Positions 4,028 to 12,490 of a stretch of DNA of 64,000 nt are shown in pieces (positions within the stretch are counted from its first letter, which is position 1; every line of letters starts with the position of its first letter). The notes beneath the pieces are model-generated. The model saw only the letters and a program-made list of their open reading frames with translations, was not told the DNA's origin and did not search any database. The stretch is from Acidimicrobiales bacterium (GTDB lineage: Bacteria > Actinomycetota > Acidimicrobiia > Acidimicrobiales > SZUA-35): assembly GCA_013003535.1 (NCBI GenBank), contig JABDIY010000092.1, positions 22,198 through 86,197 on the forward strand, given 5' to 3'. Made by a program: the position numbers and the translations under genes.

Positions 4028-4033
4028 ATCTTA
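4028..4033 (-). promoter_or_regulatory. -10-like element TAAGAT for a leaderless aceE transcript
   Basis: TAAGAT then 6 nt then ATG on the minus strand. Confidence 0.5.
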
Positions 4034-4040
4034 TGGGTCC

Positions 4041-4046
4041 TAGGCT
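4041..4046 (+). promoter_or_regulatory. -10-like element TAGGCT for a leaderless rnhA transcript
   Basis: TAGGCT then 7 nt then in-frame GTG at 4054. Confidence 0.5.
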
Positions 4047-4053
4047 GCCCATC

Positions 4054-5004
4054 GTGCCATCCACTACGTCGACGATCGATGTCTATACCGATGGAGCTTG
4101 CTCAGGAAATCCGGGCCCAGGGGGTTGGGCGTGGGTCACCAGAGGCGGCGCCGGAGGAAGCGGCTCCGAGCCGGACACCACCAACCAGCGAATGGAAGTG
4201 CGCGCAGTACTTGAAGCGCTCCGAGAAAATCCTGGTCCGGTTCATATCTATTCCGACAGCGCCTATGTGGTGAACTGTTTCAACGATCGTTGGTATGAGG
4301 GCTGGCTGAAGCGGGGTTGGAAGAACAGCCAAAAGAAGCCGGTGGCGAACAGGGACTTGTGGGAGCCCCTACTCGAGGAGGCGCTGCCGCGGATCGAAAA
4401 CGGAGACCTGAAGTTCTTTTGGGTGAAGGGCCATTCGGGTGACGAGATGAACGACAGGGCCGACGCGCTCGCCGTCGCGGCCCTGGAACAACACAAGGAA
4501 TCCCTCGGTCCTGCAGAAAGCCGCTCTCGGTCAGCCGAGGAGCTAGCGATCGAGTCAGCTTTGGAATCTGCACCTGGCGTTCCGTGGGACTTCACCGACG
4601 CCCTCGTCGTGGTTGGAGCCACGTCCCTCAGCGCTGACCAAGAACGGGCGGTGAAAGAAGCGATACGCTCCGCCTCCGGGTTGGTGGTGAGTGGTCTTCG
4701 CCGCGGAGCAGAGCTTGTTGCGGCCGAGGCGGCGTTGGATCAGCGGCTGAAGCTAGCCGCGGTCCTTCCATTTCCCGATCCGGCGGCGCATTGGCCCGAA
4801 GACTTGCGGAGCCGATTCGATACGGCGCTCGGCCGGGCCGATTTCGAGATCGTGCTAAACGGTGATCCAGCGTCCCCCGGCTCTGCCATGCGCTTACGGA
4901 ACCGCTGGCTGGAAAACGCCGCACTGGGCATCGTCGTGGTCGGCGATCCGGCCCTCGCCGCCCGATTCGACGACGCTGGTCTGTCGGTGATCGAGATCCC
5001 GTAG
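4054..5004 (+). CDS. rnhA: Ribonuclease HI with C-terminal SLOG/DprA-like Rossmann domain
   Basis: RNase HI motifs YTDGACSGNPGPGGWAW, TTNQRMEV, YSDSAYVV, WVKGHSGDEMNDRAD; C-terminal part DALVVVGATSLS...GLVVSGLRRGAELVAAEAAL...VLPFP...RLRNRWLENAALGIVVV. The ORF-track ATG at 4033 is less likely than GTG at 4054. Confidence 0.9.
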   Translation: MPSTTSTIDVYTDGACSGNPGPGGWAWVTRGGAGGSGSEPDTTNQRMEVRAVLEALRENPGPVHIYSDSAYVVNCFNDRWYEGWLKRGWKNSQKKPVANRDLWEPLLEEALPRIENGDLKFFWVKGHSGDEMNDRADALAVAALEQHKESLGPAESRSRSAEELAIESALESAPGVPWDFTDALVVVGATSLSADQERAVKEAIRSASGLVVSGLRRGAELVAAEAALDQRLKLAAVLPFPDPAAHWPEDLRSRFDTALGRADFEIVLNGDPASPGSAMRLRNRWLENAALGIVVVGDPALAARFDDAGLSVIEIP

Positions 5005-7618: not shown

Positions 7619-7770
7619 AGAGGGTCGTCCCTCGCCGAGACGCCTTGAGCATTCGGAGTGGGGGGGGAAATCTCCAGCCCGGTTCCATTGCGGGTGGGCA
7701 TGGCACCGCCAGCGGCTGGATACCATCAAAGAGCTAGAGCAGGGACTTGCTCGTTCGAAAGGTTGCACCC

Positions 7771-9174
7771 GTGTCAGATTCTCACTTCGATGTCGTAGTT
7801 ATCGGTGGGGGGCCGGGCGGCTATGCGTCGGCGCTCTATGGGGCTTCCGCCGGCCTCAACGTGGCGATCATCGAGTACAACAAACTGGGTGGCACCTGTT
7901 TGAACGTGGGTTGTATCCCCGCCAAAGAGCTGTTGGAGACGGCGGCGGTGAACCGGATGGTGAAGCACGCCGCAGATTTCGGAATCGAAGCCGAAGCCAC
8001 GGGTGTCAACTGGGACGTCACGCTCAAGCGGAAGCAGGGCATTATCGACCAGTTGGTCGGTGGTCTTGGTTCGCTGCTGAAAATGCGGAAAGTCACCGTT
8101 TTCGACGGCACCGGGACCTTGGGTGAGGATCATCGGACCGTCTCGATCTCGGGCGGACAGAGCGGCGACGTGGCCATTACCGGCGATGCCGTGATCATCG
8201 CAGCCGGCAGTCAAGCCCGAACCATTCCTGGTTTCCCAGTTGACGATCGCCGAATCGTCACCTCTACCGAACTCCTCAGCATCCCTGAGCTACCTGAGTC
8301 AGCGGTGGTTATCGGCGGTGGAGCGATCGGCTGTGAGTTCGCTTCCATGATGAGTGACCTCGGGACCAAAGTCACCATCATCGAGGCCGCCCCCAACATC
8401 CTTCTGAGCACCGATGTTGACTGCCGGAAGGTGGTGGAGCGTTCGTTCAAGAAGCGCGGCATCGACATCTACACCGGCGTGATGGTGACCGGCCAACAAA
8501 CCAATGGCGATGAGGTCACCGTTTCCTTCGGTGACGATCAGAAGGTCACCGCCAACACGGTCGTAGTGAGCATTGGTCGCCGTCCCGCCAGCGAAACGCT
8601 AGGTCTCGACAACACCCAGGTTCAGCTCGACGAGCGAGGACATGTGGTCGTGGACCCGATTGGGCGCACCACCGTGGAGGGAGTGTGGGCAGTCGGCGAC
8701 GTCGTCAATTCTGCTCAGCTGGCCCACGTGGCTTTCATCGAGGGAATGAATGCAATCAAAGACATTCTCGGCGAGGCCGTTATGCCGATCGATTACGACA
8801 GTGTTCCCTGGTGTGTGTACTGCTACCCCGAGGTTGCTTTCGCGGGTCTCACCGAAGAGCAGGCCAAGGAACGGGGCATGGAGGTGGTGGTGAGCAAACA
8901 CCGCTACAACTCCAACGGTCGCGCCATGATCGTAGGTGAAACCGACGGTCTGGTGAAGGTGGTTGCCAAAAAGAACGCCGACGGCACTGGCGGTCAGATC
9001 GTGGGTGTCCACATGGCTGGCCCCTGGGTTACCGAGCAGCTTGGCCAGGGGTATTTGGCCGTCAACTGGGAAGCCACTGTCGAGGAGGCCGCCGCCTTCA
9101 TCCAACCTCATCCCACCCTGAGCGAGACCTTTGGAGAAACCGTGCTCGCTCTCACCGGCCGATCACTTCATTGA
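7771..9174 (+). CDS. lpdA: Dihydrolipoyl dehydrogenase (E3)
   Basis: GGGPGGYASALYGA, GGTCLNVGCIPAKELL, C-terminal HPTLSET; start GTG 7771. Confidence 0.96.
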   Translation: MSDSHFDVVVIGGGPGGYASALYGASAGLNVAIIEYNKLGGTCLNVGCIPAKELLETAAVNRMVKHAADFGIEAEATGVNWDVTLKRKQGIIDQLVGGLGSLLKMRKVTVFDGTGTLGEDHRTVSISGGQSGDVAITGDAVIIAAGSQARTIPGFPVDDRRIVTSTELLSIPELPESAVVIGGGAIGCEFASMMSDLGTKVTIIEAAPNILLSTDVDCRKVVERSFKKRGIDIYTGVMVTGQQTNGDEVTVSFGDDQKVTANTVVVSIGRRPASETLGLDNTQVQLDERGHVVVDPIGRTTVEGVWAVGDVVNSAQLAHVAFIEGMNAIKDILGEAVMPIDYDSVPWCVYCYPEVAFAGLTEEQAKERGMEVVVSKHRYNSNGRAMIVGETDGLVKVVAKKNADGTGGQIVGVHMAGPWVTEQLGQGYLAVNWEATVEEAAAFIQPHPTLSETFGETVLALTGRSLH

Positions 9175-9256: not shown

Positions 9257-10756
9257 GTGGCCGAAATTGAGATGCCCCAATTGGGCGAAACCGTTACCGA
9301 GGGGACCATCACACGTTGGTTCAAGAAGGTCGGCGAATCTGTAGCCGTCGATGAAGTTCTGTTCGAGGTGTCCACTGACAAGGTCGACACCGAAGTGCCG
9401 TCTACTTCGGCCGGCACCCTCACCGAGATCAAAGTGGCCGAGGGCGAAACGGTTGATGTCGGAACCGTGCTTGCCGTAGTGGGGGACGGTGCTGCGGCGC
9501 CAGCAGAGGCGGCGCCAGCAGAGGCGGCACCGGCTGAGGCGGCACCGGCTGAGGCGGCACCGGCAGAGGCGCCGTCCGCTCCGGAACCCGAGGTACAAGC
9601 CCCGCCGGATGCGACACCGCCACCACCCCCACCGCCACCGGCGGCCAGCCCGCCCCCTCCAGAACGCCCAGCAGCGAGTCCGCCACCACCAACCCCGCCT
9701 GCCCAACCTCAGCCGGTAGCAAATCAACCTGCGGCCTCCGCCGGGAACGCCGCCGGCAAAGTGCTTTCCCCCGTGGTACGACGGCTCGTGAACACCTATG
9801 GAATCGATGCCAGCCAGATCACCGGGTCGGGCCTGGGTGGGCGGGTTAGCAGAGATGACGTCCAGCGATACATCGAAGCCAACGGCCTTCAGCCGGTTGG
9901 CATGGCGGCAGCCCCTGCTGCCCCGGCGACAGCCCCGGCGAGCCCGCCGCCAGCCCCACCAGCTGCGGAAAGTCCGGCGCCAGCACCGGCCCCGGCGCCC
10001 GTAGCACGCGTTGCGTCGGCACCGGTGGTTCAGGCTGGTCAGCGTGACACTGTGGTACCACTTTCCAATATTCGCCTTCGCACCGGCGAGCACATGGTCA
10101 TGAGCAAAGCCGTGGCACCGCACACGCTTACCGCCATGGAGATCGACTATGAGAATGTGGAACAAGTCCGTAAGAAGCACGGTTCGGAGTTCAAATCCGA
10201 CGAGGGAATGAGTCTTACCTATTTGCCGTTCATCTCTCGAGCAGTCATCGATGCGCTCCGTGAATATCCTCACCTCAACGCCTCCGTTGGTGACGGCGAA
10301 CTTGTCGTCCACTCCGAGGTCAACCTCGGGGTAGCGGTCGATCTGGACTTCCAGGGCCTGCTGGCCCCAGTTGTCCGCGGTGCAGATGGAATGCGAATGC
10401 GCGCCGTCGCTCGGGCCATTTCCGACATTGCCCGTCGAGCCAGGAGCAAGCAGCTATCGCCTGATGAGCTGGTGGGAGGAACCTTCACCCTCACCAATGC
10501 CGGAAGCTATGGGACGATGATGCAGTTTCCGATCATCAACCAGCCTCAGGTAGCAATCCTTTCCACCGATGCCGTGAAGCGGAAGCCGGTTGTGATCGAG
10601 GACGAGTACGGCAACGAGTCCATCGCCATACACAGTGTCGGAGTGCTGGCAATGGCGTGGGACCATCGGGCGGTTGATGGTGCATATGCCGCCGCCTTCC
10701 TCGCCCGGGTTCGAGACATCCTCGAGACCCGAGATTGGAACGCCGAGCTGGCGTAA
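9257..10756 (+). CDS. 2-oxo acid dehydrogenase E2 (dihydrolipoamide acyltransferase), single lipoyl domain
   Basis: Lipoyl motif STDKVDTEVPS, peripheral subunit-binding domain, catalytic DHRAVDG. Confidence 0.95.
   Translation: MAEIEMPQLGETVTEGTITRWFKKVGESVAVDEVLFEVSTDKVDTEVPSTSAGTLTEIKVAEGETVDVGTVLAVVGDGAAAPAEAAPAEAAPAEAAPAEAAPAEAPSAPEPEVQAPPDATPPPPPPPPAASPPPPERPAASPPPPTPPAQPQPVANQPAASAGNAAGKVLSPVVRRLVNTYGIDASQITGSGLGGRVSRDDVQRYIEANGLQPVGMAAAPAAPATAPASPPPAPPAAESPAPAPAPAPVARVASAPVVQAGQRDTVVPLSNIRLRTGEHMVMSKAVAPHTLTAMEIDYENVEQVRKKHGSEFKSDEGMSLTYLPFISRAVIDALREYPHLNASVGDGELVVHSEVNLGVAVDLDFQGLLAPVVRGADGMRMRAVARAISDIARRARSKQLSPDELVGGTFTLTNAGSYGTMMQFPIINQPQVAILSTDAVKRKPVVIEDEYGNESIAIHSVGVLAMAWDHRAVDGAYAAAFLARVRDILETRDWNAELA
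9497..9571 (+). repeat. Five tandem 15-bp units encoding APAEA in the E2 linker
   Basis: gcg/gca cca/ccg gca/gct gag gcg repeated five times. Confidence 0.9.
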
Positions 10757-10822
10757 GCGGTGTCGGCGGGGAGCCAACCAAACCAGACATCACCGACGCA
10801 CCGTCCACCTAGACTGTTGGTA

Positions 10823-12490
10823 ATGAACCAATTATCCCGGCTCTCGGCGCGTTGGCTGGGGCTAGTGCCCTACGCCGAGGCGTGGGATCTCCAGAACCGG
10901 TTGTTCGCAGGAACCTCCAATCACCTTCTCCTGCTGGAGCACCCACCGGTCTACACCCGCGGGGTACGAGCCGATCCTGCGAACCTCCTCGTGGACCCCA
11001 TCAGCATCGGCGCCGAAGACGTCGAAGTGAATCGTGGTGGCGACATTACCTTCCACGGACCGGGCCAAGTTGTTGGCTATCCGATCCTCAACGTCGCCGG
11101 AAAGCGCGGCGGGGGAATGGCCGACACAACCGCCTATGTGGCCACGATCGAACAGATACTGATCGACACCCTCGCCCACTTTGGACTGAGCGCCGATCGA
11201 TTCGCCGGCTATCCCGGTGTGTGGGTCGATGCGGGAACGTCCAATGCCCGCAAGATTGCGGCTATTGGTGTTCGGCTCACGCGCGGTCGTTCGATGCATG
11301 GTTTTGCGCTGAATGTCACCACCAACATGGACTGGTTCAGCCATATTGTTCCGTGCGGCATCGCCGACCACGGGGTGACGTCGATGCAATCGGAGGGGTT
11401 CGATGCCTCGCCCGCCGAGGTGGCGGGAGTCCTCGCTCACCATGTTGCTGAGCATTTCCGATATCAACTGGACTGGGCGACGATCACGGAACGACTGTCG
11501 AGCGACTCCGATCTGAGCGTTTTCAGCAGAACCCGTAGGGCCGGTGACGTGGTTACCCCAGAGCGTCCACCGGCCCCTGATGAGGGCGTGCCCGTTCGAT
11601 TGAAAGGTCGATTGGCCGAGGCGGGGATACGAGGCGGGCTGCCCATCACCGAGCGTAAACCAGAGTGGATGCGGGTCAAGCTATCCACCGGCCCCGAATA
11701 CAAACGACTCAAGAAGCTGAGCCGCGAGCTGGATTTGGTAACAGTCTGTGAAGAGGCGGGTTGTCCGAACATCTTCGAGTGCTGGAACGAGGGAACGGCC
11801 ACCTTCATGTTGCTCGGGGAACGGTGTACCAGAGCGTGCGGCTTCTGCCTGGTAGATACCCGCAAGCCCCAAGCCGTTGATCACAGCGAACCGAAACGAG
11901 TAGCCGCCGCAGTTGCCCGCCTCCATCTCGACTTTGCCGTCCTCACGATGGTTGCCCGCGATGATCTGCCCGACGGTGGAGCGAGCGTCGTTGCCGAGAC
12001 GGTGCGGGCCATTCGAGATGAAAGCCCCACCACAGGCGTCGAGGTGCTAATTTCGGACCTGCACGGCTCCCGGGAGTCGCTGCAGACGGTTATCGATTCT
12101 CGGCCTGACGTCTTGAATCACAACATCGAGACCGTGATCGCACTCCAAAGGGCGGTACGACCATCTGCCGGCTACTCCCGGAGTCTCAGCGTCCTCGCTC
12201 GCTCCAAAGACGCCGGACTCACCACCAAGAGCGGGATGATCGTGGGTATGGGCGAAAGCGTCGAACAAGTCCAGCAAACATTGATCGATCTGGCTGCCAT
12301 CGGCGTAGACATCGTGACGATTGGCCAGTATCTCCGGCCCACCACTCATCATCTGGCGATCCAGAGATGGTGGGAACCAGCCGAATTCGCCGATCTCAAG
12401 CGGTTCGGCGAAGCCTTGGGAATACCGCATGTGGAAGCCAGCCCGCTCACCAGATCAAGTCATCACGCCGGCGCCATCGCTCGGGGCTAA
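10823..12490 (+). CDS. lipB-lipA: Fused octanoyltransferase (LipB) and lipoyl synthase (LipA)
   Basis: LipB: NRGGDITFHGPGQVVGYP, KIAAIGVRLTRGRSMHGFALNV, PCGIADHGVTSM. LipA: CEEAGCPNIFECWNEGTATFMLLGERCTRACGFC, C-terminal RSSHHA. One uninterrupted frame; TAGACT 7 nt before ATG 10823. Confidence 0.96.
   Translation: MNQLSRLSARWLGLVPYAEAWDLQNRLFAGTSNHLLLLEHPPVYTRGVRADPANLLVDPISIGAEDVEVNRGGDITFHGPGQVVGYPILNVAGKRGGGMADTTAYVATIEQILIDTLAHFGLSADRFAGYPGVWVDAGTSNARKIAAIGVRLTRGRSMHGFALNVTTNMDWFSHIVPCGIADHGVTSMQSEGFDASPAEVAGVLAHHVAEHFRYQLDWATITERLSSDSDLSVFSRTRRAGDVVTPERPPAPDEGVPVRLKGRLAEAGIRGGLPITERKPEWMRVKLSTGPEYKRLKKLSRELDLVTVCEEAGCPNIFECWNEGTATFMLLGERCTRACGFCLVDTRKPQAVDHSEPKRVAAAVARLHLDFAVLTMVARDDLPDGGASVVAETVRAIRDESPTTGVEVLISDLHGSRESLQTVIDSRPDVLNHNIETVIALQRAVRPSAGYSRSLSVLARSKDAGLTTKSGMIVGMGESVEQVQQTLIDLAAIGVDIVTIGQYLRPTTHHLAIQRWWEPAEFADLKRFGEALGIPHVEASPLTRSSHHAGAIARG

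Follow-up and report, generated by a model that had tools for sequence, protein, structure and literature searches.

A LipB-LipA fusion in one reading frame is a retained trait of the bacterial class Acidimicrobiia

A single stop-free reading frame at positions 10823-12490 on the forward strand of the window (the whole 64,000-nucleotide stretch of Acidimicrobiales DNA that was analysed) encodes both an octanoyltransferase (LipB) and a lipoyl synthase (LipA), each of them complete. As a rule, octanoylation and sulfur insertion are the work of separate proteins. We propose that the product of the gene, lipBA, is a bifunctional enzyme that carries out both steps of de novo lipoylation, and that the gene goes back to a single joining of lipB and lipA in the ancestor of the Acidimicrobiia and has been kept since, a reading that we hold with a probability of about 0.88. 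LipB and LipA as enzymes are textbook material and the fusion is two known enzymes joined; its two activities are assigned by analogy with the known LipB and LipA families. The features of the locus are as follows.

7747..9174, forward strand: lpdA, dihydrolipoyl dehydrogenase (TIGR01350, 480 bits)
9257..10756, forward strand: E2 acyltransferase with a lipoyl domain, directly upstream of lipBA (Pfam and NCBIfam)
10823..12490, forward strand: lipBA, fused octanoyltransferase-lipoyl synthase gene, 555 aa, stop codon at 12488-12490
10835..11482, forward strand: LipB domain, residues 5-220 (PRK14345 match over residues 5-218; model pLDDT mostly >90)
11252..11254, forward strand: LipB catalytic Lys144 (100% conserved in 101 aligned fused proteins)
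11354..11356, forward strand: LipB catalytic Cys178 (100% conserved in the same 101 proteins)
11483..11650, forward strand: linker, residues 221-276 (lowest conservation; pLDDT 50-63 over 221-260; third-position bias)
11510..11545, forward strand: linker motif 1, residues 230-241, a degenerate copy of DLSxFSRGxGxG (F[STAV]RGxG pattern in relatives)
11585..11641, forward strand: linker motif 2, GVPVRLKGRLAEAGIRGGL, residues 255-273 (similar stretch in many linkers)
11651..12487, forward strand: LipA domain, residues 277-555 (TIGR00510 match over residues 276-552)
11747..11782, forward strand: LipA auxiliary-cluster motif CX4CX5C (C309, C314, C320; all three 100% conserved in the 101 fused proteins)
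11825..11848, forward strand: LipA radical-SAM motif CX3CX2C (C335, C339, C342; all three 100% conserved in the 101 fused proteins)
12452..12463, forward strand: RSSH, the auxiliary-cluster serine motif (R544-S545-S546-H547; usually RSSY)

Both halves of the frame score above NCBIfam cut-offs and the frame reads through from one to the other, as an earlier note made from the DNA letters had claimed. Over the LipB part, PRK14345 gives 196 bits (cut-off 155; residues 5-218) and TIGR00214 gives 143 bits (cut-off 83.55), and K144 and C178 are both present. Over the LipA part, TIGR00510 gives 330.7 bits (cut-off 310.25), with all six cluster cysteines and R544 to H547 in place, and the cluster-binding Ser546 is conserved in 99% of the 101 aligned fused proteins. 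The same note's description of both domains as complete, including the two cluster motifs and the C-terminal RSSH of LipA, therefore stands. A search of PDB structures matched each domain with its own solved counterpart (5exk for LipA, TMt 0.93; 1w66 for LipB, TMt 0.85), no entry among the best-ranked covered both domains, and a viral structure library gave no useful match.

Compared with stand-alone LipB (PRK14345, TIGR00214; 1w66 of M. tuberculosis), the fusion shares the fold (TMt 0.85), the Lys/Cys dyad and the RGGD/HGPGQ region, but it continues into the linker and LipA where the stand-alone enzyme stops after its own domain. Similarly, the fold (TMt up to 0.93, with 5exk), both cluster motifs and the cluster-binding serine are common to the LipA part and stand-alone LipA (TIGR00510; 5exi, 5exj and 5exk of M. 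tuberculosis), whereas in the fusion the LipA N-terminus is attached to LipB and RSSH replaces RSSY. A histidine at the tyrosine position of this motif is reported to be tolerated (PMC13232139). RSSH in place of RSSY occurs in 37 of 143 fused loci, in the family of the window and some others, and tyrosine is found at this position in all 26 separate LipA proteins checked.

The start of lipBA is likely the ATG at 10823 or a codon close by. A GTG at 10760 is a possible alternative that would add 21 codons to the frame, but the whole stop-to-stop frame of the fusion in a relative of the same genus is 559 aa, so that such an extension has no room there. Directly 5' of lipBA lie lpdA and the E2 gene, in the placement that had been noted from the DNA, and this gene order, lpdA-E2-lipBA, is conserved: among relatives' loci with enough flanking DNA, E2 is directly upstream in 49 of 59 and lpdA is upstream in 58 of 59. 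Elsewhere in the window, at 4033-5004 on the forward strand, an RNase HI domain (PF00075, 122 bits) precedes, within one frame, a SLOG/DprA-like half, for which the YpsA and DprA matches are weak and below cut-off; this may be a further domain fusion.

The window comes from a 4.0-Mb draft assembly in 221 contigs that is ~96% complete, and a lost stop codon or a frameshift introduced by sequencing or assembly could in principle join two genes on paper. Many assemblies made independently show the same open frame, among them single-contig genomes such as G026, G030, G042 and G066, and we regard the chance of such an artefact as negligible; a linker stop or frameshift, which the note had named as the finding that would speak against the fusion, was encountered in none of them. 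Stops reported in two genomes, G092 and G146, fall right where the LipB match begins, outside the linker. At the window locus alone, an open linker has a probability of ~0.18 by base composition, and an open linker in all 101 loci, if these were independent, one of ~10^-56, a figure that is overstated since the loci are related.

Within the Acidimicrobiia the fusion is a class-wide trait, with near-complete retention. Examination of the window's own genome and 40 relatives gave a match in 39 of 41, nearly all with both domains or both parts in one frame, and a class-wide search gave a match in 141 of 148 genomes, mostly one stop-free match over both domains. All 40 class genomes that were picked across families and read directly are fused, and even genomes of ~1 Mb, in genus g52, carry the fusion. 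In total 143 fused loci were collected, some of which represent one species present in two collections. Judged from these sequences, lipBA is a retained one-polypeptide fusion, with both domains in one translated frame that is kept in relatives. The suggestion in the note that such fusions may exist for "a few lineages" is an understatement, given that the fusion is class-wide in Acidimicrobiia and absent from the other Actinomycetota sampled.

Exceptions within the class are few. G130, a metagenome-assembled genome that is 85% complete, has a LipB with its own stop and no LipA after it, and no LipA was found elsewhere in that assembly; loss or replacement of LipA is possible, and the presence of LipB alone counts against the bifunctional reading. 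No LipB or LipA match was obtained in four further class genomes (G097, G101, G137 and G182), each >90% complete, which may reflect assembly gaps or real losses. A separate lipB-lipA pair on a 5-kb contig of G091 was considered as an unfused example from the class; both domain trees place it well away from the fused clade, the genome also contains a fused copy, and the pair is probably a contaminant or a transfer.

In a search of 247 genomes of the phylum, stop-free full-span matches were restricted to Acidimicrobiia among the matches listed, and the 47 loci read from other Actinomycetota include no fusion. Where LipB was found in these, its gene mostly precedes lipA at a short distance and in the same orientation; no LipB was found in the stretch read for 16 of the 47, which shows only that the LipA gene there is free of LipB. 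These neighbouring pairs encode the same two enzymes as lipBA, mostly in the same order and on the same strand, but in every locus read the two genes are kept apart by a stop codon or by lying in different frames. Candidate fusions outside the class, in the form of LipA matches within open frames longer than ~480 aa, were fetched and none is fused; long LipA frames of this kind are attributed to chance, because the DNA is GC rich and no second domain was present where tested. In a plasmid collection, the two fetched matches that cover both domains, from Neisseria and Nonomuraea, are separate genes, and two others are annotated as two genes; phyla other than Actinomycetota may still have fusions of independent origin.

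In phylogenetic trees of LipA and of LipB, each built from 48 fused and 26 separate rows, every fused row falls to the same side of a single branch (SH-aLRT values of 81 and 95, respectively), with one state change. Given this grouping in both domain trees, a single origin of the fusion, at the base of the Acidimicrobiia and from the neighbouring operon genes lipB and lipA, is most likely.

The linker is the least conserved region of the protein. From the end of LipB to the KPxW of LipA it spans 19-84 aa in the 101-protein alignment, and a few fused loci outside that alignment have longer linkers. It had been described as proline rich, and that of the window does hold some proline (PERPPAPDEGVP), but over the family linkers are not notably so, with 7.1% proline versus 5.4% in the whole protein. 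Of 143 linkers, 65 contain the pattern F[STAV]RGxG, which is present in both deepest lineages, is absent elsewhere in these proteins, and was not seen in separate LipB tails or LipA heads; it is missing from about half of the fused loci, and the window's own copy is degenerate (FSRTRRAG). Within same-genus pairs, linker changes fall mostly at the third codon position (between loci L010 and L011, 9 at first, 4 at second and 44 at third positions), and by this measure the linker evolves as translated, constrained protein.

Such constraint bears on whether LipA could be made on its own from an internal start in the linker, so that free LipA would accompany or replace the fusion. In 35 of 101 loci there is at least one in-frame ATG, GTG or TTG that has a fair ribosome-binding match, and in the window a TTG located 23 codons before the Met of KPEWM scores -7.8. 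However, no start position is conserved across loci, an in-frame start codon is wholly missing from the linker in 10 of 101, which counts against separate translation, and the protein-level constraint on linker changes does so as well. We consider free LipA of this origin very improbable.

A stronger competitor is that the fusion is a passive by-product of the joining of operon genes, in which the domains act independently and the tether is catalytically neutral, a possibility to which we give somewhat less than even odds. On this view, to which the same odds apply, the fusion persists since the cell cannot do without either part and is under no selection to separate them. The variable, poorly conserved linker of 19-84 aa, the lack of the F[STAV]RGxG motif in approximately half of the linkers, and the resemblance of each domain to its stand-alone relative all agree with it. 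The poor conservation and variable length of the linker also weigh against the bifunctional reading, in that they fit a tether better than a precise device. Conversely, near-complete retention throughout an old and diverse class is unexpected for free domains, although it is no proof of coupling, and the same can be said of the confident whole-chain structure models obtained for two orthologues. For the window protein, AlphaFold2 with 60 natural sequences as input gave a whole-chain pLDDT of 88 and a pTM of 0.91, with the linker weak at residues 221-260, and for a short-linker orthologue (L106) a pLDDT of 87.5 and a pTM of 0.90. For domains that float freely a far lower pTM is to be expected, and the score thus suggests a fixed domain arrangement in two orthologues with different linkers.

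If lipBA is indeed one bifunctional enzyme, its LipB domain would transfer octanoate from octanoyl-ACP onto Cys178, with the participation of Lys144, and would then hand the octanoyl group to the lipoyl-domain lysine of GcvH and E2 proteins. The LipA domain would next insert two sulfurs, at C6 and C8, by means of its radical-SAM cluster and with sacrifice of the auxiliary cluster. The tether would presumably fix equal amounts of both activities and may raise the local concentration of LipA near the freshly octanoylated carrier. Hand-over of substrate between the two domains of the fusion is plausible. The earlier note had proposed that octanoyl transfer and sulfur insertion are physically coupled; support for this extends to covalent tethering and a predicted domain arrangement and stops short of channelling. 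A fixed assembly that docks one lipoyl domain for octanoylation and then sulfuration, with no free exchange in between, and that uses the clade-specific linker motifs as a dock or latch, appears unlikely to us. Should it hold true, it would be a natural lipoylation machine with substrate channelling that a whole bacterial class has kept.

The fusion probably serves several carriers and not the neighbouring E2 alone, because the genome encodes one GcvH and five E2-type acyltransferases but only one LipA and one canonical LipB, each of them a domain of the lipBA protein. No further LipA, and no further LipB above the LipB models, was found in this ~96% complete genome. Therefore, the adjacent E2, put forward in the note as the protein needing lipoylation, does adjoin lipBA but cannot be its sole target. 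The genome also holds a second LplA/B-like protein of 234 aa (positions 1387-2091 of locus L110, contig C69; PF21948, 50 bits), which is far below ligase cut-offs and matches no NCBIfam model above cut-off; it may be a ligase or a transferase with a role in salvage or in transfer between carriers.

Sequence databases may already label LipB-LipA fusions automatically as multifunctional. Among NCBIfam fusion models, the only related one present is NF053790, bifunctional lipoate-protein ligase/lipoyl synthase (LplA-LipA), and there is none for LipB-LipA. Both arrangements place an attachment enzyme of the LplA/B superfamily N-terminal to LipA, but in NF053790 the N-terminal part is a ligase, and the window protein matches the LipA half only, scoring 332 bits against a cut-off of 800 with its best stretch in the LipA part, and is not a member. 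We found no published description of a LipB-LipA fusion in the open-access literature searched, nor did the text of PMC10332631, a phylogenomic paper on lipoate assembly, yield one.

The fusion is firm, class-defining and experimentally tractable, though made of known parts. As a natural enzyme found throughout a class, it offers a test of whether the two lipoylation steps are physically coupled, and it would let the entire pathway be studied, structurally and kinetically, in one protein, besides providing a compact, one-gene lipoylation module for engineering. It is also a rare genomic marker of a bacterial class.
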